A stretch of 64,000 nt of DNA from a virus, in IMG/VR virus record IMGVR_UViG_3300013108_000151, positions 1 through 64,000 of that record; one strand, written 5' to 3'. Under the pieces are notes generated by a model, which saw only the letters and a list, made by a program, of their open reading frames with translations, did no database searches and was not told the origin of the DNA. Both the position numbers and the translations under genes were made by a program. Numbering within the stretch: position 1 is the stretch's first letter; every line of letters starts with the position of its first letter. Positions 2,335 to 49,840 of this stretch are shown one piece after another.

Positions 2335-3012
2335 TTATTTATTATGACCTTTCATGCTCAAACAAATATCATAGAATTCTTGTTTTAGAGCAGGATCTCT
2401 TTCAAAGCCACCTAGCATAATTGCTGTTGTCATGTCTGACTCGTGTTCACGTACACCTCTGTGAGTCATACAATGATGTTCTGCTTTTACTACCACTGCT
2501 ACATGTGGAGTTTTAGCATATCTTTGTAATTCTTCCGCAATCTGTGTGGTCATTTCTTCTTGAATCTGCGGGCGTTCAGCAATATGATGTACTAGTCTAT
2601 TAAACTTTGATAATCCAATTACTTCGTCTTCTGGTACAATGCCTACCCATGCTTTGCCTACAATGTTTTGAAAATGATGGGCACAGGTTGACCTAATAGT
2701 AATAGGACCTGATGTATATAAACTTTTATATCCCATATTTGGAAAACTTGTAACACGTGGTATAGGTTGAAACCTCCCGCCAAATATTTCTTTTACATAC
2801 ATTTTTGCTACACGTCTTGCGGTATCATTTGTATTATGGTCGTGTTCAGTGTCAATTACCAAACTTTCCATAACTTCTTGTAGTTTACCTTGAACTTCAT
2901 CTTGTAGTTGATCTAGTTCACCTTCATGAATAAACTCAGATATATTATCATTACAATGAAATCTTTTGTTCTTTGCTTTGATTCTTTCTTTAATTACTTT
3001 ACTTATTTCCAT
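2335..3012 (-). CDS. folE: GTP cyclohydrolase I
   Basis: Converts GTP to 7,8-dihydroneopterin triphosphate, the first step of both folate and 7-deazaguanine (preQ0) synthesis. The 225-residue protein has the zinc-site motifs STCAHHF (Cys and His, about residues 108-114) and EHHCMTHRGV with the second Cys. The substrate-binding GLSKFNRLV segment is also present. Length is typical for the type I enzyme. SD GGAGA precedes the ATG. Its place 1.7 kb from a QueD-like T-fold gene and 3.7 kb from a DpdA-like gene suggests it feeds a DNA 7-deazaguanine pathway rather than folate. Confidence 0.95.
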   Translation of the reverse strand: MEISKVIKERIKAKNKRFHCNDNISEFIHEGELDQLQDEVQGKLQEVMESLVIDTEHDHNTNDTARRVAKMYVKEIFGGRFQPIPRVTSFPNMGYKSLYTSGPITIRSTCAHHFQNIVGKAWVGIVPEDEVIGLSKFNRLVHHIAERPQIQEEMTTQIAEELQRYAKTPHVAVVVKAEHHCMTHRGVREHESDMTTAIMLGGFERDPALKQEFYDICLSMKGHNK

Positions 3013-19277: not shown

Positions 19278-19502
19278 TTAAATGAAAAACTTTTTTAATA
19301 ATTGGCTATTAATACTTCTATCAGCCCTACGACTTGCTTTTTTCATCTTTTTTGCTTTTGCCCTAAGTACTTTTAATTCTGCTCTAGTTAGTTCTGGCCT
19401 TGTTGTAAAGCCTAGATAACGTAATGCTCTGTACTTAAAGTTTCCTTTCTTTTTGAAGTTGTTAATCGATACTGTTTCATGCTTTAGTTCCTCGTTTTTC
19501 AT
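19278..19502 (-). CDS. Small very basic protein, 74 aa
   Basis: More than a quarter of the residues are Lys or Arg, in two clusters (KKKGNFKYRALR, RAKAKKMKKASRRADR). This suggests nucleic acid binding or a packaged DNA-compacting protein. It overlaps the 3' end of the HAD-CCA gene by 26 bases in another frame. No family is recognised. Confidence 0.55.
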   Translation of the reverse strand: MKNEELKHETVSINNFKKKGNFKYRALRYLGFTTRPELTRAELKVLRAKAKKMKKASRRADRSINSQLLKKFFI

Positions 19503-21909
19503 TTTCCCAACTCCTTCTTAATAGGGCAACTCGTCCTTCACCTTTTACTTGTAGTCCGAGTTTATTAGCCTGTTTTGATGTTTCGCCCGGTTTAACATCT
19601 TTAGTTGTATTATATGGTGTTATAATTCCAACACCTTCATCTAAGTCTAACATGTCTGCCATACGTTTCATAGCAAAACTTTTAGATTCTGTAGTTACAG
19701 CATTTAGTAAATCGTCTGCTGATAAGTCATAATTGTTTTGTTTCCACAAGTCTTTTAATTTGTTTAGTGTAGCACCTAACCCAGGCCCAGGTGTCATGCC
19801 GTGTTGTATAAGATCTTTTCCTGTTATAGGAAACTCCGGCATTGTAAATTGTTCTATATAACTTGCTAGTTTTTCATTGCTTTGTATCTTTAATAGATTA
19901 CTAACTTTTACTTTATCGTGCCCATCAATAACCAAATGCTCTGCTTGTTCTTTTGTTAATTTTCTATTTTTGTAAGTTGTATAAAACTTTAAATCTTGTG
20001 CTTCGGCGTTACTTAATTTCCATTTGTTAGCAATAGAAGTATCATCAACTAAAACTGCTAATGCTATTACAGGATCTGTATTACCTTTTATATCTGTTAA
20101 TCTTGCTATCTTGCCTGTGTCTAATCCTATTACCTCGTCAACACCTGTTGCTGACATATAGGACAATGTTTGAATTACACTATGTCCTACTAATAGTTTG
20201 CCCATCTCCTGCCATATTCTCTCTACAGAAACTTGAGACAATCCTTTAGTGTTATCTTTAATAGCCTTTAATGTTTCTTTATCCCAAGTAGGACTTTCTA
20301 ATTTACTTTGAAATCTAAAGTATCTTAGTATTCTTAAGTAATCTTCTTTAATACGTTCTACTGGATCACCAACAAACTTACTAACTTTATCTTGTAAGTC
20401 GTCCATGCCTTCAAAGTAATCATACAAGTTGCCATCAAAGTCTAAACTCATAGCATTGTAAGTTAAGTCTCTACGTTTAGCATCTTCTTTCCAGTTACGA
20501 ATAAACTCTACGTCAGCATGTCGACCATCTGTATTAGTGTCTGCTCTTAACGTTGTAATTTCATATCCTTCGCCGTCAATAATTGCTGTAAGAGTTCCGT
20601 GTTCCATTCCAGTAGGCTTATGTTTAATACCTGCTTTGTCTAGTATAGCAACCATTTCGTCTGGTGTGGCATCTGATGCCAAGTCAATATCTTTAGGTGT
20701 TTTACCTAAAGCAATATCTCTAACAGCACCGCCAACTATTCTTATTTCAAACTTGTTCTTTTTGAATACGCTATCTAATTTTTCTAACGCTGGGTTCATT
20801 ATATTGTTAAACCCTTCTGTATCTAGTTCTTCACTTTCAACAGTAAACTCTTTGTTAGAAGTTTTAAAGTCTGCTTTCCTCATTACTGTTTTAGCAATAA
20901 GATCTAATTCTTTGTTATTTTTATCCCATACTAAAGCAAAAGGTACATTAACATCAGTTCTCATATCTTTCATTACTGCTTCAGCATCAGGACCCATTTG
21001 AGCAATAGGTCTTGCCCAGTATTTGTATTCTTGTTTAAATAAACGTGTTAGTTCTGCTGGTGTAATAGGTTTTTCGTTTCTAGCATCATTTACTCTATCT
21101 AAAAAATGTCTAGTAAATTCTACATCAATGCCTACTTTAGAAAATAGTCTGTCAGCATATGCTTCAATTTGTTTTAAGTCTTGTGGTGTAACATCTTCGT
21201 AAACTTTTCTTACATACTTCTTGTAATTTAATCCGTGTCCTGAACTAGGCCTATAGCCCATCTTAGCACCTTTAGGCTTTGGGTATCTTAGTTTTCCTGG
21301 AGTAGACTTTTTTACTTTTAAAGGCCTTCTAAATCCACCATAAGTTAATCCGCTGATACTTAATGGTCCACGTTCGTTTAAATATTGCTCTTTATAATCG
21401 TCCAAAGCATTTATAACTACATTCAACGAATCTTCATCTGCTTGATACTTAATACCGTAACCGCCTGCTTTATTCCAATTTTCAATGTTTAGTCCTCTGT
21501 CGTCAATTAATATATTAGGCGTACCATCTGGTTGTTTAGCAAATCTATCTTTGTTTGCTACTATAAGAGTGTTTGTAGGTTTAATTTTTAACTTTCTGCC
21601 AATCCAGTCAATTTTATGCTTTTTGCTGTTTTCATGATCATTTCTTAGTGGCGAGGAACATATACTATACGAGCCAAAACGATTTATAACTATTTGAAGT
21701 AATTTATCTGCTGTAGGAAATTTTTCTAACTTAGCAAAGAAGTCTGTGCCTATCATTCTATTAAGAGTAGAATTTACTTTGTCTTGGGGTATGTCTCTAT
21801 AAGTTTTAACACCTACCATTTTTGCCCAAGCACCAAAGAAGTCTGCTAGTACTCCATCCATGTCAACATAAACTATAGGCTGTTTGTTATCTACTTCACT
21901 TAGTTTCAT
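19477..21909 (-). CDS. HAD phosphatase - linker domain - CCA-adding/poly(A) polymerase fusion, 810 aa
   Basis: Residues 13-165 form a HAD domain: VYVDMDGVLADFF gives the DxD nucleophile pair, and ILIDDRGLNIENW gives the C-terminal acidic motif. Residues 235-350 are a separate unknown domain (VEFTRHFLDRVNDARNEKPIT). Residues 385-620 are a class II tRNA nucleotidyltransferase/poly(A) polymerase head. It has IVGGAVRDIALG and DIDLAS (metal-binding DxD), RRDLTYNAM, and ERIKEDYLRILRYFRFQ. The N-terminus MKLSEV holds LSE. Together this would repair RNA 3' ends: a phosphatase plus a CCA/A-adding enzyme. Whether it is packaged or acts in the cell is not known. Confidence 0.85.
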   Translation of the reverse strand: MKLSEVDNKQPIVYVDMDGVLADFFGAWAKMVGVKTYRDIPQDKVNSTLNRMIGTDFFAKLEKFPTADKLLQIVINRFGSYSICSSPLRNDHENSKKHKIDWIGRKLKIKPTNTLIVANKDRFAKQPDGTPNILIDDRGLNIENWNKAGGYGIKYQADEDSLNVVINALDDYKEQYLNERGPLSISGLTYGGFRRPLKVKKSTPGKLRYPKPKGAKMGYRPSSGHGLNYKKYVRKVYEDVTPQDLKQIEAYADRLFSKVGIDVEFTRHFLDRVNDARNEKPITPAELTRLFKQEYKYWARPIAQMGPDAEAVMKDMRTDVNVPFALVWDKNNKELDLIAKTVMRKADFKTSNKEFTVESEELDTEGFNNIMNPALEKLDSVFKKNKFEIRIVGGAVRDIALGKTPKDIDLASDATPDEMVAILDKAGIKHKPTGMEHGTLTAIIDGEGYEITTLRADTNTDGRHADVEFIRNWKEDAKRRDLTYNAMSLDFDGNLYDYFEGMDDLQDKVSKFVGDPVERIKEDYLRILRYFRFQSKLESPTWDKETLKAIKDNTKGLSQVSVERIWQEMGKLLVGHSVIQTLSYMSATGVDEVIGLDTGKIARLTDIKGNTDPVIALAVLVDDTSIANKWKLSNAEAQDLKFYTTYKNRKLTKEQAEHLVIDGHDKVKVSNLLKIQSNEKLASYIEQFTMPEFPITGKDLIQHGMTPGPGLGATLNKLKDLWKQNNYDLSADDLLNAVTTESKSFAMKRMADMLDLDEGVGIITPYNTTKDVKPGETSKQANKLGLQVKGEGRVALLRRSWENEKRGTKA

Positions 21910-34924: not shown

Positions 34925-35536
34925 TTATCCCACCTTGCGAATATCTATTACACTTTTATTTATGCCAGATACAATATTATATATGTCTCCCCAGTTCTTT
35001 GCTACAGGAAAGTCGTGTTCGGTATTCATGTTGTGACCATGTTCCATTACAATAGGTTTCAATCCTGCTTTAGCACCAGCAATAGCATTTTCTACTTTAT
35101 CTTCAATCCACCACATTTTACTATTCTCATATACAGATAGTGCTTCGTCTTTATCAGCACCAGTTCCTAAGCAAGTAACTTCTGTAAACACACCCTCGCC
35201 AAACAATTTATCTAAGTTTTGCTCACGTAATTTTTTAGCATGATATTGTGTAGACATACTAGTAATAGCATGGAATGTCCAACCTTCGTCTGCCAATTTT
35301 GTTACATATTCAACAGCATCTCGTAAAGGAGGTAGAAATCCCATTACAGCACTTTCGTTAAAAATCTTAATCAGTTTCTTTGCTTGTGATTTTTCAATGC
35401 TATATCGAATGTTCATTCCGTAAGCAAATTCTTCGCCTTCTTGCTTTTTGAATCCTTGTTCGTTCATCCAAACATCAAAAGCATACTCCCAATTTAGTAA
35501 TACACCGTCTACGTCTGTTAATATTGTCTTTTTCAA
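34925..35536 (-). CDS. HAD-superfamily phosphatase
   Basis: 203 residues from a TTG at 35536. That start is chosen because a perfect promoter (35567-35595) lies inside the longer ORF and AAGGAAAC precedes the TTG; the ATG at 35629 would be upstream of the RNA start. ILTDVDGVLLNWE gives the DxD motif (residues 8-10), HAITSMS the Ser/Thr motif and WWIEDKVENAIAGAKAG the Lys/acidic motif. It removes phosphate from a small molecule or nucleotide, like the HAD part of the fusion at 19477-21909. The substrate is unknown. Confidence 0.85.
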   Translation of the reverse strand: MKKTILTDVDGVLLNWEYAFDVWMNEQGFKKQEGEEFAYGMNIRYSIEKSQAKKLIKIFNESAVMGFLPPLRDAVEYVTKLADEGWTFHAITSMSTQYHAKKLREQNLDKLFGEGVFTEVTCLGTGADKDEALSVYENSKMWWIEDKVENAIAGAKAGLKPIVMEHGHNMNTEHDFPVAKNWGDIYNIVSGINKSVIDIRKVG

Positions 35537-35566
35537 TGGAGTTTCCTTATTGTTAATTATAGTATA

Positions 35567-35595
35567 ATTATACACTATTTTAGGCCGTTTGTCAA
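35567..35595 (-). promoter_or_regulatory. Perfect sigma70 promoter of the HAD gene
   Basis: TTGACA (35595-35590), 17 bases, TATAAT (35572-35567) on the minus strand. All twelve hexamer bases match consensus. Confidence 0.85.
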
Positions 35596-35751
35596 CCGGT
35601 TTTTTCATTAAATGACTAGTTAAGTACATACATTTTATTAGTTAAATACTACTATGAATAATAAAAGAAAAGTACCGAATAGAGGTATTGGCACAAGTCT
35701 AAGCCTAAATAGAAAGAATGGCTATAAAGTTTATGTGGAGAATAATACATT

Positions 35752-36621
35752 ATGTTTAAGTCATTTTTTCAAGAGACAAAGTGGTTCTTACTCGCGACTG
35801 TCATACTAGGTGTAATCTTAGTAGGCAACATATATTATTGGCAATGGGAAGATCAGCGCCAAGCAAGAGCTAACGAAGGTATCCCCGAGTGGATATGGAA
35901 TCCAAACTATTTAGAAGAACATAACCTAGTAGAAGAAAAGGGATTAGAGTTTAAAAAACTTTCAGCACAGTTGTATTCTATGACTGGTAATATTGCTGTA
36001 GACGATTGTGAAAAAATTGTCCCACTTCTACCAAAAGACGATATACCATTTACAGTTATCTTAGAGAGCCCAGGTGGTTCTTTATTTGATGGAATATGTC
36101 TAGCGGCGCATCTTAAACACAGAAATGTTGTAACAGTTGTTCGTGATACACCTATTGTAGACGACGAAGGCAACATATTATATGAGCCTGGACTAGTTGG
36201 CTTTAGTGATGATCAGCCTGCTATAATGGACGGCAAGGTTATTTGTGCTTCGTCATGTGCTTTTATATTTTTAGGTGGAGATTATAGATATTTGATAGGT
36301 GATGTTTGGTACGGCATACATGCCCCGAGGACACCTGAAGATGTACAAGGCGGTATTAGTAAAACAGCAATTGAAACACAAGCCTATCGTTCGGCTACTG
36401 GCATAATGATGCTACTTGATCAATTAGGTGTTACACATAATGAAATTAAGTATTTGTTTATACAAGTACCGTCGACGTCAATGTATTGGTTACACCCTAG
36501 AGACTTTGCTGTAACGCCAGCATTGGGTTTCATTGCTACACATTATAGAGATTTTTGGGATTTTAATTTTGAACAACCGGTATATGTAGGAACCGGTATA
36601 CCAGACAAAAAGGAGAAATAA
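35752..36621 (+). CDS. Membrane-anchored ClpP/SppA-like serine protease
   Basis: 289 residues. One N-terminal membrane helix (about 12-29) puts the rest in the periplasm. The fold signature follows: VILESPGGSLFDG (103-114), CASSCAFIFLGG with the likely nucleophile Ser167, and WYGIHAPR with His190, matching the ClpP Ser-His spacing and the COG3904-like ESPGGS...CASACA...GFH pattern of periplasmic ClpP relatives. It would cut peptides in the periplasm. GGAG lies about 12 bases upstream of the ATG. The next gene, SbmA-like, starts three bases after its stop, so they are one operon. Confidence 0.85.
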   Translation: MFKSFFQETKWFLLATVILGVILVGNIYYWQWEDQRQARANEGIPEWIWNPNYLEEHNLVEEKGLEFKKLSAQLYSMTGNIAVDDCEKIVPLLPKDDIPFTVILESPGGSLFDGICLAAHLKHRNVVTVVRDTPIVDDEGNILYEPGLVGFSDDQPAIMDGKVICASSCAFIFLGGDYRYLIGDVWYGIHAPRTPEDVQGGISKTAIETQAYRSATGIMMLLDQLGVTHNEIKYLFIQVPSTSMYWLHPRDFAVTPALGFIATHYRDFWDFNFEQPVYVGTGIPDKKEK

Positions 36622-36623
36622 AA

Positions 36624-37646
36624 ATGTTAAGATCATTTTTCTTAGACAAACAGAACGGCTTTTATGCTTGGACTATGTTAGCCTTGTTATTAGGATTGTC
36701 CTGGTATACTGTACAACTTCTTGTATTTTATAATGCTTGGAATAGAGAAATTTACGATACTTTACAATCATTACAGGAAGATAGATTTTGGGAATTATTC
36801 TTAGGCTGGGATTGGGGAAGGATACGAGAGTTAGTTATATTAAAAGAAGGCACTATGATGTCATTTTTAGAACTTATTGTCCTTTACGTTCCTATAGCCG
36901 TGTACGCCACGTGGCAAACACAACGATACTGTTTCAAATGGCGAGAAGCAAATACACATTATTATCTACGTAGATGGGAAGGTTGTGAGGCTAAAATTGA
37001 AGGTGGCAGTCAGCGTATACAAGAAGACTTAATGATATTTGGTAAAACATTACAAAGTTTGTTTACAGGTTTCTTTAGTTCTATACTAGTATTGTTTGCT
37101 TTCCTTCCTATACTTTGGACCTTATCAGAAGGGTTGCCTGTATGGAATGGACAAATTATTCCCGGCTTCCTTGTATGGGTAGCATTAGGTGTATCCTTAG
37201 GAGGTACTTTTATATCTGTTATACTTGGTTGGAAACTGCCTAGTTTAGAATACAACAACCAAAAAGTAGAAGCAACATTTAGAAAGCAACTAGTTTTTTC
37301 AGAAGATGATTTTAAAGCAAGGGCAACGGAAGTTTTATTTCCTATGTTTAGTTCTGTTAAGAGAAACTATTATAGACTATTTAATTGGTACATGGGATTT
37401 GGTGTATGGCAAACAGCATTTGGATTATGTGTAGGTAACTTAGCACTAATTGTTTTAGCACCAGCATATTTTGACCAACTTATTACACTTGGAGTTTTAT
37501 TCCAGGTACTTAATGCATTTGGACGAGTAGAAAGTTCAATGGGATTCTTTATTGATCGATGGACGACCATCGTAGACTTCATGTCTGTTATTAAACGTAT
37601 CCGTGAATTCAACACAGCCTTAGATACGGCAGAAATGGAGAAATAA
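36624..37646 (+). CDS. SbmA/BacA-family membrane transporter
   Basis: 340 residues, slightly shorter than SbmA (406). About five to seven membrane segments. The middle matches SbmA closely in pattern: FKWREANTHYYLRRW, EGGSQRIQEDLMIFGKTL, a LPILWTLSEGLPV loop, GWKLPSLEYNNQKVEATFRKQLV and YFDQLITLGVLFQVLNAFGRV. SbmA/BacA proteins import peptides and peptide-like antibiotics across the inner membrane using the proton gradient. It overlaps nothing and follows the periplasmic protease by two bases, with GGAG before its start. A phage copy is unusual. Confidence 0.88.
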   Translation: MLRSFFLDKQNGFYAWTMLALLLGLSWYTVQLLVFYNAWNREIYDTLQSLQEDRFWELFLGWDWGRIRELVILKEGTMMSFLELIVLYVPIAVYATWQTQRYCFKWREANTHYYLRRWEGCEAKIEGGSQRIQEDLMIFGKTLQSLFTGFFSSILVLFAFLPILWTLSEGLPVWNGQIIPGFLVWVALGVSLGGTFISVILGWKLPSLEYNNQKVEATFRKQLVFSEDDFKARATEVLFPMFSSVKRNYYRLFNWYMGFGVWQTAFGLCVGNLALIVLAPAYFDQLITLGVLFQVLNAFGRVESSMGFFIDRWTTIVDFMSVIKRIREFNTALDTAEMEK

Positions 37647-37648
37647 AA

Positions 37649-38137
37649 ATGATTAAAAAAACATTAGCCCGATGGTGGTTGATTACAACAATCACATTGT
37701 GTGGTGTTTATCCATTGTGGACGTTTGGTATATTTGGAGACATTTATATGGCAGACGTTACAAGCATTCATTTAATAATTTATGCTGTATTTGTACTTGC
37801 TACTATTCTGACAGGGATTGCGGCCTGGAGGACAAATACAAGTGATAGACGAACAGGGCATTACAATAAAACAACAACAAAGATTGTTGACATTTGTTGG
37901 TTCTTATCTGAGTCAATGATGACATTAGGTTTGATTGGAACAATAGCAGGAATGATATACTTGTTTAGTATGATATTTGGCGACATAGATGTTAGTGATC
38001 CTGATAGTTTAAAAGAAGCATTATCGCATATGGCCAGAGGACTTTCAACTGCTATGTACACTACAATCTGTGGTATGATTGGTGCTTTAATAACAAAAGT
38101 TCAATTAATGAATATAGAGTTTGACACAAATGAATAG
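37649..38137 (+). CDS. MotA/TolQ/ExbB-like proton channel protein
   Basis: 162 residues, four hydrophobic segments. The last two (MTLGLIGTIAGMIYLFSM and LSTAMYTTICGMIGALIT) carry the ExbB/TolQ/MotA helix pattern of small residues plus the Thr-rich channel-facing face. It ends DTNE, sharing eight bases with the next gene (ATGAATAG overlap). It would pair with the ExbD/MotB-like protein to use proton flow for mechanical work on an envelope partner. It is preceded by GGAG and lies two bases after SbmA. Confidence 0.8.
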   Translation: MIKKTLARWWLITTITLCGVYPLWTFGIFGDIYMADVTSIHLIIYAVFVLATILTGIAAWRTNTSDRRTGHYNKTTTKIVDICWFLSESMMTLGLIGTIAGMIYLFSMIFGDIDVSDPDSLKEALSHMARGLSTAMYTTICGMIGALITKVQLMNIEFDTNE

Positions 38138-38819
38138 ACAAAGATTCAAAGGCATGACATCGTTCTTAGATATGCTCTGGATACTGTTAGCAGGATTTGG
38201 AGCCATGTTTATTATTGCTTTTCTTCTTATACAACCACCGGCAAAGAATGCCGACATTATTAAGAAAGCAGAATACATTATTGTCCTTAGTTGGGATAGT
38301 GAAGTAGGAGATGATATTGACCTTTGGGTACGAGATCCGAAAGGTATTACTGTTAGTTTTAGAAACAAGACTGGCGGTCTTATGAATTTAGAAAAGGACG
38401 ACTTAGGCAGACAAAATGATGCTATAACAGATGAGTATGGTAACGTAACTGTAGTAAAAATAAACAGAGAAACAACAACACTTCGAGGAACAGTACCAGG
38501 TGAATACGAAGTAATGATTCACGTATACTCAAGAGAGTTTGTGCCTAGTACTAGAGAAAATGCTAAACCAGGTGCCCAACATCGACGTACAGGTCCTGTT
38601 GAATATAGTGTTGAAGTTATAAAAATCAATCCTTACAAAATAGTATATGCTACAGAGGGGGTATATGATCAAGACAAGCAAGAAATAAGTATTGTAAGAT
38701 TTACAATTGGTGATGATCACGAGTTTGAAGGGTTCAACAATAATCCTTCTAACATTATACAATTTACTACAGATTCTTATAATGGTAATACTCAAATTAA
38801 CGGGAGGCCTTTATTATGA
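38130..38819 (+). CDS. ExbD/MotB-like partner with DUF2135-like periplasmic domain
   Basis: 229 residues from the ATG at 38130, which overlaps the channel gene; a TTG three codons earlier also fits. One membrane helix (about residues 8-33) has an Asp at its cytoplasmic entry (SFLDMLWILLAGF), the proton-carrying position of ExbD and MotB. The periplasmic part contains VLSWDSEVGDDIDLWVRDPKG and later GTVPGEYEVMIHVYS, a beta-sandwich like DUF2135. It would be the second stator subunit of the pair. The OmpA-like peptidoglycan-binding motif is not seen. Confidence 0.7.
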   Translation: MNRQRFKGMTSFLDMLWILLAGFGAMFIIAFLLIQPPAKNADIIKKAEYIIVLSWDSEVGDDIDLWVRDPKGITVSFRNKTGGLMNLEKDDLGRQNDAITDEYGNVTVVKINRETTTLRGTVPGEYEVMIHVYSREFVPSTRENAKPGAQHRRTGPVEYSVEVIKINPYKIVYATEGVYDQDKQEISIVRFTIGDDHEFEGFNNNPSNIIQFTTDSYNGNTQINGRPLL

Positions 38820-39307
38820 CATTAGACATGGAACTAACTAAAATATTCTTAACATTATCTATATTTGTATTAATGTCCTTCTCGTTGTTTGTTGCTATAC
38901 GTTATGGTAGAGTTAACAAATGGACTTACATAATGATACCTGTTATACTAGTTTTATCTATGACTATTAAAACTAGTATAGAAGATATGTTAGGATATCC
39001 TACAAAGCAAGTAGCAAAAGAAGAACAGTTATACCTTACACACTTTGTTGGTATAGAGAAAAAATGGATATACATTTGGGCAATTGACAACAGTATATCT
39101 TGGGAGCCAAGGGCGTTTAAAATAGTTTATACTAAAGAAAACGAAAAAGCATTACAAGATGCTAAAGAACAACAACAAGCAGGCGTACCAATAGGTGTAG
39201 CCGTAGATGAGCCACCAAGAGTTGGCGGAGAGAAAGATCGACAAACAGTACGAGTAAATGTTTTTAACAAATCTCGTGGTGTACAAAAATCAAATGGAGA
39301 CTATTAA
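38816..39307 (+). CDS. Two-TM protein of the membrane operon, 163 aa (unknown)
   Basis: Two hydrophobic helices (about 6-30 and 37-52) followed by a periplasmic-type soluble part with WIYIWAIDNSISWEPRAFKIVY (residues 79-101) and a Gln/Ala/Lys-rich tail. It overlaps its neighbour upstream by four bases (ATGA) and abuts the ClpP gene downstream. The function is not recognisable; its place suggests a linker of the channel pair to the proteases. Confidence 0.65.
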   Translation: MTLDMELTKIFLTLSIFVLMSFSLFVAIRYGRVNKWTYIMIPVILVLSMTIKTSIEDMLGYPTKQVAKEEQLYLTHFVGIEKKWIYIWAIDNSISWEPRAFKIVYTKENEKALQDAKEQQQAGVPIGVAVDEPPRVGGEKDRQTVRVNVFNKSRGVQKSNGDY

Positions 39308-39885
39308 TGAGTGATAAGAAAGTATTAACACCAGCAGATATGATACCACCTAAAGTAGAATTGCTTATGAATGGTATGTATATGTTTATGGGAGATGTTT
39401 CTATGGAAACAATGAATCCTGTTATAGATTGGATTCTTGCCGAGAACATGAAAAAAACTAATAAAGCAAAAGAACTAACCTTAGGGATTTGTTCAAGAGG
39501 CGGTGACCTAAATGCCTGCTTTGCCTTAGTTGATGTTATGAGGGCTTCCTCTATACCAGTTAGGACAATAGGACTAGGCATGATTGCTTCATGCGGATTG
39601 TTATTGTTTATATCGGGTAAGAAAGGCCGCAGGATACTTACACCTAATACAGCAATATTATCACATCAGTATAGTTGGGGTAGTGCTGGTAAGGAACACG
39701 AACTATTTGCTCGTGTAAAAGAACTAGAACTAACAACAGAAAGAATGATTGAACACTATAAAAAGTGTACAGGTTTAACAGAAAAGAAAATAAGAGAGTT
39801 CTTATTGCCACCGCAAGATGTGTGGTTAAGTGCCAAAGAGGCTAAAGAATTAAAACTATGTGATAGGGTTGAAAACATAAAATAA
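39307..39885 (+). CDS. clpP: ClpP-type serine protease (cytoplasmic)
   Basis: 192 residues, the usual ClpP length, without signal or membrane helix. The catalytic triad is complete: Ser95 in GLGMIASCG (compare GQAASMG), His120 in ILSHQYSWG, Asp171 in PPQDVWLSAKEA, which lies as in E. coli ClpP. ICSRGGDLNACFALVDVM is the substrate strand. It should form a ring-shaped peptidase chamber and could work with the phage ClpA-like unfoldase at 25770-28088, whose IGF loop is intact, or with host ClpA/ClpX. It ends the plus-strand operon's main run. Confidence 0.92.
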   Translation: MSDKKVLTPADMIPPKVELLMNGMYMFMGDVSMETMNPVIDWILAENMKKTNKAKELTLGICSRGGDLNACFALVDVMRASSIPVRTIGLGMIASCGLLLFISGKKGRRILTPNTAILSHQYSWGSAGKEHELFARVKELELTTERMIEHYKKCTGLTEKKIREFLLPPQDVWLSAKEAKELKLCDRVENIK

Positions 39886-39907
39886 ATATACCGAAAGGAG
39901 GTTACTA

Positions 39908-40039
39908 ATGTATAATAGAAATGTTTGGACAGGAATACTAATATTAGCAATCTTATGTATGGCATTTTTTCTTAAGCCAGCACACGGTACAGAAATAAAT
40001 GTGTTTTCAAATAAAAAAGAGAATTTAACCTGCTACTAA
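39908..40039 (+). CDS. Tiny secreted or membrane peptide, 43 aa
   Basis: A strong GAAAGGAGG precedes the ATG at 39908. A hydrophobic segment (about residues 7-22) ending in a PAHG site resembles a signal peptide or a one-pass helix, followed by a short polar tail with one Cys near the end. It overlaps the last codon of the 2OG oxygenase gene on the other strand. It closes the membrane operon. No family is recognised. Confidence 0.55.
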   Translation: MYNRNVWTGILILAILCMAFFLKPAHGTEINVFSNKKENLTCY

Positions 40040-48536: not shown

Positions 48537-48743
48537 TTAATATCGAGGAATATTGGCCATTGCTCTTTGAGTATCGGCATCGTTTTGGGCTGTTTGGACA
48601 GCCTTTTTTAACTCAGAATTTTCACGTCGTAAGCGTTTATTTTCAGTAATAAGATCGTCAATTCGTCTTTCCAAATCCAACGGGCCTCTATCATCAGGTA
48701 AACTGGCTATGTATTCATTTGCTGTCATTTTCTCTTTTGTCAT
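48537..48743 (-). CDS. Coiled-coil small protein, 68 aa
   Basis: Start at 48743 (MTKEKMTAN) has GGAG about ten bases upstream and an ATGA overlap with the halogenase stop. A long amphipathic helix (LERRIDDLITENKRLRRENS, then ELKKAVQTAQNDADTQRAMA) has strong heptad character. Function not recognised. Confidence 0.65.
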   Translation of the reverse strand: MTKEKMTANEYIASLPDDRGPLDLERRIDDLITENKRLRRENSELKKAVQTAQNDADTQRAMANIPRY

Positions 48744-49840
48744 AACATATTCTCCTTGAGCAAGTTCCAACTGTGTTTGCTCATCAATCCTTGGTGGCCG
48801 TGTTTACTATACTGTTTAATATCGGCTAAGGATTGCTCTTTGTATTGTTTAAAGTGATCCCAGTACGGACCTTTAGCACTATTAGTTCCATATAAAGCAT
48901 TCACCCATTTATGTATGCCTTCATATACTTTAGACATTAGCCTGTTATACACTTTAGGCTTATGACGTAATGCTATTAACTGTTTTATACTTGCCTGTGC
49001 TATAAAGTTCGCTGTAGCATTTAATGGTTCAATAAATCCAGCACTAATACCAACAGCAACAACATTGCCAACCCATTGCTCTACTGGCCTACGTGATTTA
49101 AATTTAATTACATTTTCTGCTTCAAGTCCTGTTTTTTCTGTAAACTCTTTTTTAGCATCTTCTATACTAATAAACTTACTACTAAACACATAACCATAAC
49201 TCATTCTACTTTGTAAACTAATACTCCACATCCACCCAGCATCCATCGTTTGTGCTCTAGTAAAAGGTTCGTATCGGGGCTCTCCGTTTGCCACTATAGC
49301 ATGATCATTAATAAGCACATCACTTTCAATATGTTTAACACCAACGTGTTTACTTAATATTCCACTTTCGCCTGTAGCATCAATAAACATATCAGTATCG
49401 TTGTAATCTTCTAAAGTAAAGTCTCTAGGAATAATTTTAAAATTAGGTTTGCTAACACAATGCTCTTTTAATAGTTCGCAAAATTTAGGAGCATCAATGT
49501 GATAACTAAATGTTTGACGTTGCTTTGTTGCTAGATTATTATCTTCATTTGCGGCATAGTATATCCAGTTATCATGGCTCCATCCTTCAAACACGTTACC
49601 ATATTTGAAGTAGCCATTAGATCTATCAACTAACTCTTGGTCAGTTATTCCTAGTATTTGACTAATCTCGTTGATAACTGGAATAGTGCTTTCGCCTATT
49701 CGCCTAATAATAGTGTTAGGGTTATTATACATTACTACTTGTTCACCATTTTCAACAAGGTATAGGGAAGAGATCCAACCAGCAACACCATTACCAACAA
49801 CTTGTACAGTTGTTCCGACATCGAATATTGTATTAGTCAC
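48740..49840 (-). CDS. Flavin-dependent tryptophan halogenase-like protein
   Basis: 366 residues (bacterial enzymes are about 500-530). VVGNGVAGWISSLYL is the GxGxxG FAD site (about 11-25), GESTIPVINE matches the GExxxP motif, and FKYGNVFEGW holds a Lys where the catalytic lysine of PrnA lies. GWMWSISL matches GWxWxIP except for the final Pro. Enzymes of this family halogenate aromatics with reduced flavin and chloride. Copies occur in marine phages, with unknown substrate. Neighbours are coiled-coil and GroES-like genes. Confidence 0.85.
   Translation of the reverse strand: MTNTIFDVGTTVQVVGNGVAGWISSLYLVENGEQVVMYNNPNTIIRRIGESTIPVINEISQILGITDQELVDRSNGYFKYGNVFEGWSHDNWIYYAANEDNNLATKQRQTFSYHIDAPKFCELLKEHCVSKPNFKIIPRDFTLEDYNDTDMFIDATGESGILSKHVGVKHIESDVLINDHAIVANGEPRYEPFTRAQTMDAGWMWSISLQSRMSYGYVFSSKFISIEDAKKEFTEKTGLEAENVIKFKSRRPVEQWVGNVVAVGISAGFIEPLNATANFIAQASIKQLIALRHKPKVYNRLMSKVYEGIHKWVNALYGTNSAKGPYWDHFKQYKEQSLADIKQYSKHGHQGLMSKHSWNLLKENML

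Follow-up and report, generated by a model that had tools for sequence, protein, structure and literature searches.

A phage-encoded locus that links an ExbB/ExbD-like motor to an exported protease-like protein and an SbmA-type peptide importer

The Ton (ExbB-ExbD-TonB) and Tol (TolQ-TolR-TolA) motors each comprise a channel with conserved threonines, a partner with a single membrane helix and an invariant aspartate, and a third membrane protein; in Escherichia coli TolQR, the essential Asp23 of TolR lies close to the conserved Thr145 and Thr178 of TolQ (PMC12215075). A MotA/ExbB-type channel with an Asp-bearing partner is also part of Zorya (ZorAB), in which ZorA has a long cytoplasmic tail and ZorB an OmpA-like domain. 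The proton-coupled peptide importer SbmA contains a ladder of glutamates, E193, E203, E269, E276, E287 and E378 (PMC13316013), and phage ClpP and ClpS by themselves have been described from jumbo phages (PMC7824862). Here we describe a locus that combines relatives of these proteins, found in a 64,000-nucleotide stretch (hereinafter the window) of the 64,881-base virus record IMGVR_UViG_3300013108_000151, which also encodes a phage DNA polymerase, a clamp loader and PhoH. The locus is a plus-strand run of six closely packed open reading frames (ORFs; 35752-39885), flanked by genes on the opposite (minus) strand, that encode a protease-like protein (Prot1), SbmA, a three-protein motor (ExbB, ExbD and the two-helix protein TM5) and ClpP. 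The structure and linkage of the motor and importer modules are well supported, and from these we infer, tentatively, a proton-driven inner-membrane machine that would couple envelope proteolysis and peptide import to phage production.

Each of the proteins is a member of a known superfamily or resembles one; what seems to be new is a motor with a beta-sandwich ExbD and TM5 that is joined to an exported protease and SbmA, an arrangement with no match in the databases and open-access papers that were searched. The phage ExbD has a periplasmic beta-sandwich without an ExbD/TolR match by Pfam or Foldseek, whereas TM5 has two transmembrane (TM) helices as opposed to one in TonB and TolA; moreover, proteases and an importer are linked to this motor, which is encoded by a virus. 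A duplicate of Ton or Tol was rejected given the two TM segments of TM5 and the lack of any match between TM5 and TonB or TolA. A variant of Zorya was rejected as well: a PADLOC scan matched only the channel region, weakly and to ZorA (5e-6), and gave no match for ZorB, ZorC, ZorD or ZorE, and the phage channel lacks the long ZorA tail and any OmpA-like partner domain, with an envelope protease and SbmA present instead. This agrees with the contrast to Zorya drawn in an earlier note on this DNA, as does the absence of a matching system from PADLOC, PHROGs, NCBIfam and the searchable open-access literature with its statement that no phage system with this gene set had been described. No report of a phage building its own proton-driven envelope motor was found in the open-access literature.

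Composition of the locus

All six ORFs are located where the earlier note placed them, and the short gaps and overlaps that it described correspond to junctions of +2, +2, -17, -4 and -1 bases, in gene order (Table 1). Sequences resembling AGGAG or GGAG precede most of the downstream genes, and the spacing suggests that the six genes are co-transcribed; scans of the operon for promoters and terminators gave no signal above the level of shuffled sequence. The span had been extended to 40039, but the six genes end at 39885, and 40039 is the end of a small ORF directly after clpP with an exported-looking N-terminus that begins MYNRNVWTGILILAILCMAFFLKPAHG. No clear counterpart of this ORF was found behind clpP in the relatives, and its conservation is not evident. 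In a Pfam scan of the operon, genes 2, 3 and 6 match known families, and no family match was obtained for the window proteins encoded by genes 1, 4 and 5.

Table 1. Features of the locus and associated genes in the window (aa, amino acids; AF2, AlphaFold2)
Feature	Position	Strand	Length and basis
Prot1, ClpP-fold serine protease-like, inner-membrane-anchored, predicted to face the periplasm	35752..36621	+	289 aa; AF2 and Foldseek, conservation
SbmA/BacA-type peptide importer, predicted to be proton-coupled, without N-terminal TM0	36624..37646	+	340 aa; PF05992
ExbB/TolQ/MotA-like channel subunit, minimal, without long cytoplasmic tail	37649..38137	+	162 aa; PF01618
ExbD/TolR-like subunit, one TM helix and periplasmic beta-sandwich	38121..38819 (likely start ATG 38130)	+	invariant Asp17, AF2 model
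TM5, two-TM protein, predicted periplasmic C-terminal domain, candidate third motor subunit	38816..39307	+	locus linkage, charge bias
ClpP peptidase, Ser95-His120-Asp171	39307..39885	+	192 aa; PF00574
Small ORF, signal-peptide-like; possible seventh gene	39908..40039	+	43 aa; strong ribosome-binding site
ClpA-like unfoldase, phage-encoded, IGF docking loop	25770..28088	-	772 aa; TIGR02639

The channel subunit, recognized as MotA/TolQ/ExbB-like in the earlier note, matches PF01618 (MotA_ExbB) with 32.2 bits against a cut-off of 22.9, and its Thr98 and Thr138, invariant in 69/69 sequences, are the apparent equivalents of Thr145 and Thr178 of TolQ as judged by the surrounding motifs. In the ExbD-like partner, an aspartate at the start of the TM helix (Asp17, counted from the TTG) is present in 74/74 sequences and is also retained in the rhizobiophage and bacterial members discussed below; the residues predicted to form the proton path of the motor are, then, invariant. 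The single N-terminal TM segment spans residues 19-37 by hydropathy and corresponds to a helix of residues 12-37 in the AF2 model, and comparison with homologues indicates that translation probably starts at ATG 38130 rather than at TTG 38121. In this model, which has a predicted local distance difference test score (pLDDT) of 86.6, the periplasmic domain is a beta-sandwich for which Foldseek gives a single Protein Data Bank (PDB) match under 1e-3, the functionally uncharacterized protein 2qng; leucocidin-type matches were dismissed (probability <=0.2, TM-score ~0.1). Neither Pfam nor Foldseek detects an ExbD/TolR family match or an ExbD/TolR/OmpA-like periplasmic fold in gene 4, and the proposed kinship with ExbD draws on three features other than a Pfam match: the single N-terminal helix with its invariant Asp, genetic linkage to ExbB, and the matching threonines. 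The helix-start Asp noticed in the earlier note is confirmed by this conservation; the DUF2135-like domain that it proposed fared less well, with 2/25 ExbD members matching (best E 0.02) and no match for the window protein. TM5 contains two TM segments, as had been described, and is predicted to have both termini outside: in 109/120 sequences the inter-helix loop carries more positive charge than the N-terminus, and in 92/120 more than the C-terminal side, so that, by the positive-inside rule, the C-terminal domain is predicted to be periplasmic.

The assignment of gene 2 to the SbmA family made in the earlier note is firm (PF05992, SbmA_BacA, E 6.2e-78), although the protein scores under the NCBIfam SbmA equivalog cut-off. 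The alignment with the structure of SbmA (PDB 9g3d; E 2e-54) starts only at residue 80 of the E. coli chain, hence TM0 is absent. Like the SbmA/BacA and SLiPT transporters, the viral proteins retain the equivalents of E193, E269, E276 and E287 (32/32; four of the six ladder positions); unlike these transporters, they typically have Gln in place of E203 (27/32) and Asp in place of E378 (26/32) and are linked to a protease and a motor. Judging from these residues, the viral SbmA is probably active but altered.

The AF2 model of Prot1 (pLDDT 80.7, built on 25 homologues) consists of an N-terminal helix (residues 2-40) and a domain with the ClpP fold: every PDB match listed by Foldseek is a ClpP, the best with E 6.6e-7, probability 1.00 and a TM-score (target) of 0.66. 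All 47 of the non-redundant homologues retain Ser167 and His190, which form the putative catalytic pair of what appears to be an exported serine protease-like protein, with the N-terminus predicted to be cytoplasmic and the catalytic domain to face the periplasm. The outward-facing serine protease of the earlier note is therefore borne out with respect to fold and residues, its orientation remaining a prediction from sequence. Pfam scans of every ExbD and Prot1 member gave matches at chance level only, and nothing useful came from PDB sequences searched with profiles of ExbB, ExbD, TM5 and Prot1.

The sixth protein is a ClpP (PF00574, E 2.6e-28) and has the full triad ascribed to it, conserved as Ser95 in 29/29, His120 in 29/29 and Asp171 in 27/29 sequences. 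The likely partner of this ClpP is the ClpA-like protein encoded on the minus strand of the window, which scores 803 bits with TIGR02639, under the equivalog cut-off of 993, and carries an IGF loop (NNIGFSQG) at about residue 610. Among 31 contigs with the system, many of which are fragments, ClpA is encoded in 16/31 (E < 1e-190), ClpP in 17/31 and ClpS in 9/31; the ClpS gene lies between tm5 and sbmA in L141 (11151-11453) and L143 (11164-11466) and after tm5 in L072 (3765-4067), the L numbers denoting individual loci. A phage-encoded ClpS adaptor beside motor or importer genes was also seen in L023 (685-984). The ClpP triad, the IGF loop of ClpA and the ClpS of some relatives are shared with the ClpP/ClpA/ClpS N-end-rule protease, from which the phage genes differ in being within or adjoining an envelope operon that encodes a second, exported ClpP-fold protein. 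A role of ClpP in head maturation was rejected, as head genes are absent from the operon and the phage encodes its own ClpA.

Linkage in viruses and bacteria

Searches of IMG/VR with SbmA, ExbD and Prot1 gave 80, 80 and 68 retained loci, respectively, with 321 relatives in total for ExbD; after merging of redundant ExbD proteins at 95%, 65 non-redundant exbD loci remained. In these, exbB adjoins exbD without exception (65/65) and tm5 is present in 62/65, which defines the motor module exbB-exbD-tm5, whereas the importer module is defined by sbmA lying directly behind prot1 in 42/43 marine-phage loci. The two modules are found within 3.5 kb of each other in 26/65 loci, a figure inflated by the inclusion of some loci fetched via SbmA or Prot1. 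Large contigs point in the same direction: 11/13 of those picked for ExbD also encode SbmA; all three contigs longer than 190 kb that were picked for SbmA and have no motor nearby encode ExbD elsewhere; and 9/11 contigs of this size with either gene have both, G020 having SbmA only and G009 ExbD only.

The order seen in the window, prot1-sbmA-exbB-exbD-tm5-clpP, recurs in L001, L002 and L006. In L013-L018, L020, L021 and L025-L027, the motor comes first (exbB-exbD-tm5-prot1-sbmA), with or without clpP upstream; L123, L144 and L196 have clpP-prot1-sbmA-exbB-exbD-tm5; L141 and L143 have exbB-exbD-tm5-clpS-sbmA; and in L174, about 4 kb separates the modules, which are on opposite strands. In many phages, the modules lie apart within one genome. 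Thus, the genes of the earlier note do stay together in related phages, albeit as two modules of varying order. Recurrence in dozens of viral contigs places the cluster far beyond chance, and the repeated re-joining of the modules in five gene orders is strong evidence of a shared function. Several motor-first phages (L010, L013, L014, L016, L025-L027) encode, between tm5 and prot1, a conserved protein of ~90 aa that has two Cys and is either exported or anchored in the membrane; it is possibly a further component.

The deposited phage records in which the motor was detected are all from Rhizobium and Sinorhizobium phages (27 records), where exbB, exbD and tm5 have the same order, with weak matches for the 16-3 group; phage 16-3 of Sinorhizobium meliloti encodes a divergent form (p036, p038, p040, p042). 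An exported trypsin-like protease is encoded just upstream of the motor in 16-3, NV1.1.1, TM3_3_14B and X2_25 and about 2 kb downstream in I3_11. Related Trypsin_2 proteases, some with PDZ domains, immediately precede SbmA in L036 and L054 and occur within a few kb of it in L317-L319, L039, L043, L049, L053, L071 and L074; most of the other distant SbmA loci have no such neighbor. The trypsin-like protease is unrelated in fold to Prot1, and the presence of two unrelated protease folds in the same place argues for an envelope protease as a component of the machine.

The motor occurs as a cassette in bacterial chromosomes too, a finding that, like its presence in cultured rhizobiophages and the assignment of ClpP to a phage ClpA, goes beyond the earlier note. 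A scan of bacterial genomes with the motor yielded 80 loci, nearly all exbB-exbD-tm5 and mostly from marine Gammaproteobacteria, some on contigs of up to 820 kb; a group of related gammaproteobacterial genomes, about 16 in number, has the cassette at one fixed site among housekeeping genes (for example, fumarase and aconitase). The bacterial cassette shares with that of the window the three genes, their order and the ExbD Asp, with ExbD ~31-40% identical, and differs in a longer ExbB loop and in the absence of adjoining SbmA or Prot1. In a tree built by a quick method, most bacterial copies form one clade apart from the phage copies (Shimodaira-Hasegawa-like approximate likelihood ratio test 99); a copy from a marine alphaproteobacterium is placed closer to the phage loci L141 and L143. 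The motor accordingly has a bacterial role of its own and, as it usually occurs in bacteria without SbmA, its coupling to an envelope protease and an importer is mainly a phage feature.

Some database entries appear to be misfiled. L232 (PBDY01000027.1), L233 and L234 are filed under bacterial metagenome-assembled genomes and carry the phage operon or a phage-type motor; since the tree places ExbD of L232 and L233 as identical to that of phage loci, these are probably phage contigs binned with bacteria. Conversely, an SbmA match in an Acinetobacter 'phage' (H2) was rejected because its neighbors, bacterial metabolic and transport genes, suggest a mislabelled bacterial chromosome. The INPHARED entries CAKLQH020000002.1 and CAKLQF020000003.1, labelled Acinetobacter phage, also look bacterial (transporters, threonine dehydratase, sbmA, endopeptidase).

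Other features of the window and related loci

A perfect (12/12) sigma-70-type promoter, TTGACA-17-TATAAT, is located on the minus strand at 35595-35567, within the listed 5' end of a HAD/NT5C-like gene (34925-35629), which suggests a downstream start for that gene. The minus strand also encodes a tryptophan halogenase-like protein (48740-49840; PHROG 2928), a fusion of deoxyribonucleotidase-like and tRNA nucleotidyltransferase-like regions (19477-21909) and a GTP cyclohydrolase (2335-3012). Just upstream of exbB in several large phages (L098, L111 and L124) lie genes, noticed by eye only, whose products resemble an acyl-carrier protein and Fe-S assembly proteins (A-type carrier, HscB-like J protein).

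Possible function

Among the four roles suggested in the earlier note (peptide salvage, exclusion of other phages, neutralization of envelope defences and lysis), salvage appears to fit best. ExbB and ExbD would assemble in the inner membrane of the Gram-negative host like the Ton, Tol and Mot motors and be driven by proton flow; the ExbD beta-sandwich and TM5 would deliver this work on the periplasmic side, acting on the anchored protease or its substrates or on the outer membrane. Prot1 would cleave envelope or incoming proteins, SbmA would bring the resulting peptides into the cell, and ClpAP, along with ClpS in some relatives, would help to break these down to amino acids for phage production. 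This tentative but plausible scheme is favored because each module is nearly inseparable, the modules have been re-joined in different orders, SbmA accompanies ExbD in most large contigs, the key residues are invariant, a second, unrelated exported protease fills the same place, and ClpS, ClpA and ClpP recur.

Several observations weigh against it. SbmA itself uses the proton gradient, so that the need for a motor is not evident, and the viral SbmA lacks TM0 and in most cases the E203 equivalent. Among the 34 genomes behind the fetched bacterial loci, just 3 encode SbmA, which implies that import is not the sole role of the motor; Prot1 was found in 0/19 bacterial motor genomes, in a search that had no positive control. 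Among phages, the motor occurs without SbmA in G009, G018 and the one rhizobiophage genome examined (W01).

Envelope remodelling or quality control is a rather unlikely alternative, in which proteins of the host envelope, such as receptors, stress sensors or bacteriocin-type proteins, would be stripped or cleaved by the motor and protease, keeping the cell intact or timing lysis, with SbmA clearing the fragments. The protease of rhizobiophages adjoins the motor, in the absence of SbmA from W01, and the solitary bacterial motor is consistent with a Tol-like envelope role; however, the near-constant pairing of SbmA with the protease, and its presence with the motor in large contigs, exceed the needs of disposal. 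That the modules are independent cargo genes, both suited to large marine phages and brought near each other by chance, is improbable. They do lie apart in many phages, the bacterial motor lacks SbmA and several smaller contigs have SbmA alone, but chance would hardly account for repeated re-joining with overlapping reading frames or for the prevalence of both genes in the longest contigs.

Slightly less probable still is superinfection exclusion or anti-phage defence, whereby a Zorya-like motor would sense or act on incoming phages with the proteases as effectors. The MotA/ExbB-type motor, the weak ZorA match and the envelope location are compatible with such a role; against it stand the missing ZorB-ZorE matches and ZorA tail, the bacterial site among housekeeping genes and not in defence islands, and the importer, which is unexpected in a defence system. 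A proton-leak lysis device, in which the proton path of ExbB and ExbD, both small membrane proteins, would collapse the gradient late and trigger lysis, is highly improbable, given that the conserved neighbors include no recurrent gene recognizable as an endolysin, holin or spanin, that P10VF/N34-type rhizobiophages carry the motor genes in a replication/sigma-factor region, and that a leak would disable the proton-driven SbmA.

Returning to the proposed salvage machine, a broader and more doubtful possibility is that ExbB, the beta-sandwich ExbD and TM5 represent an unrecognized class of proton-driven envelope motors, bacterial and repeatedly adopted by phages, which have coupled it to a protease and an importer that feed virus production. 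If the proposal is true, a virus would be known for the first time to encode a nutrient-import machine together with a motor that powers it; should the function hold, it would alter the view of nutrient uptake by infected marine bacteria and provide a role for a widespread, unnamed bacterial three-gene cassette.

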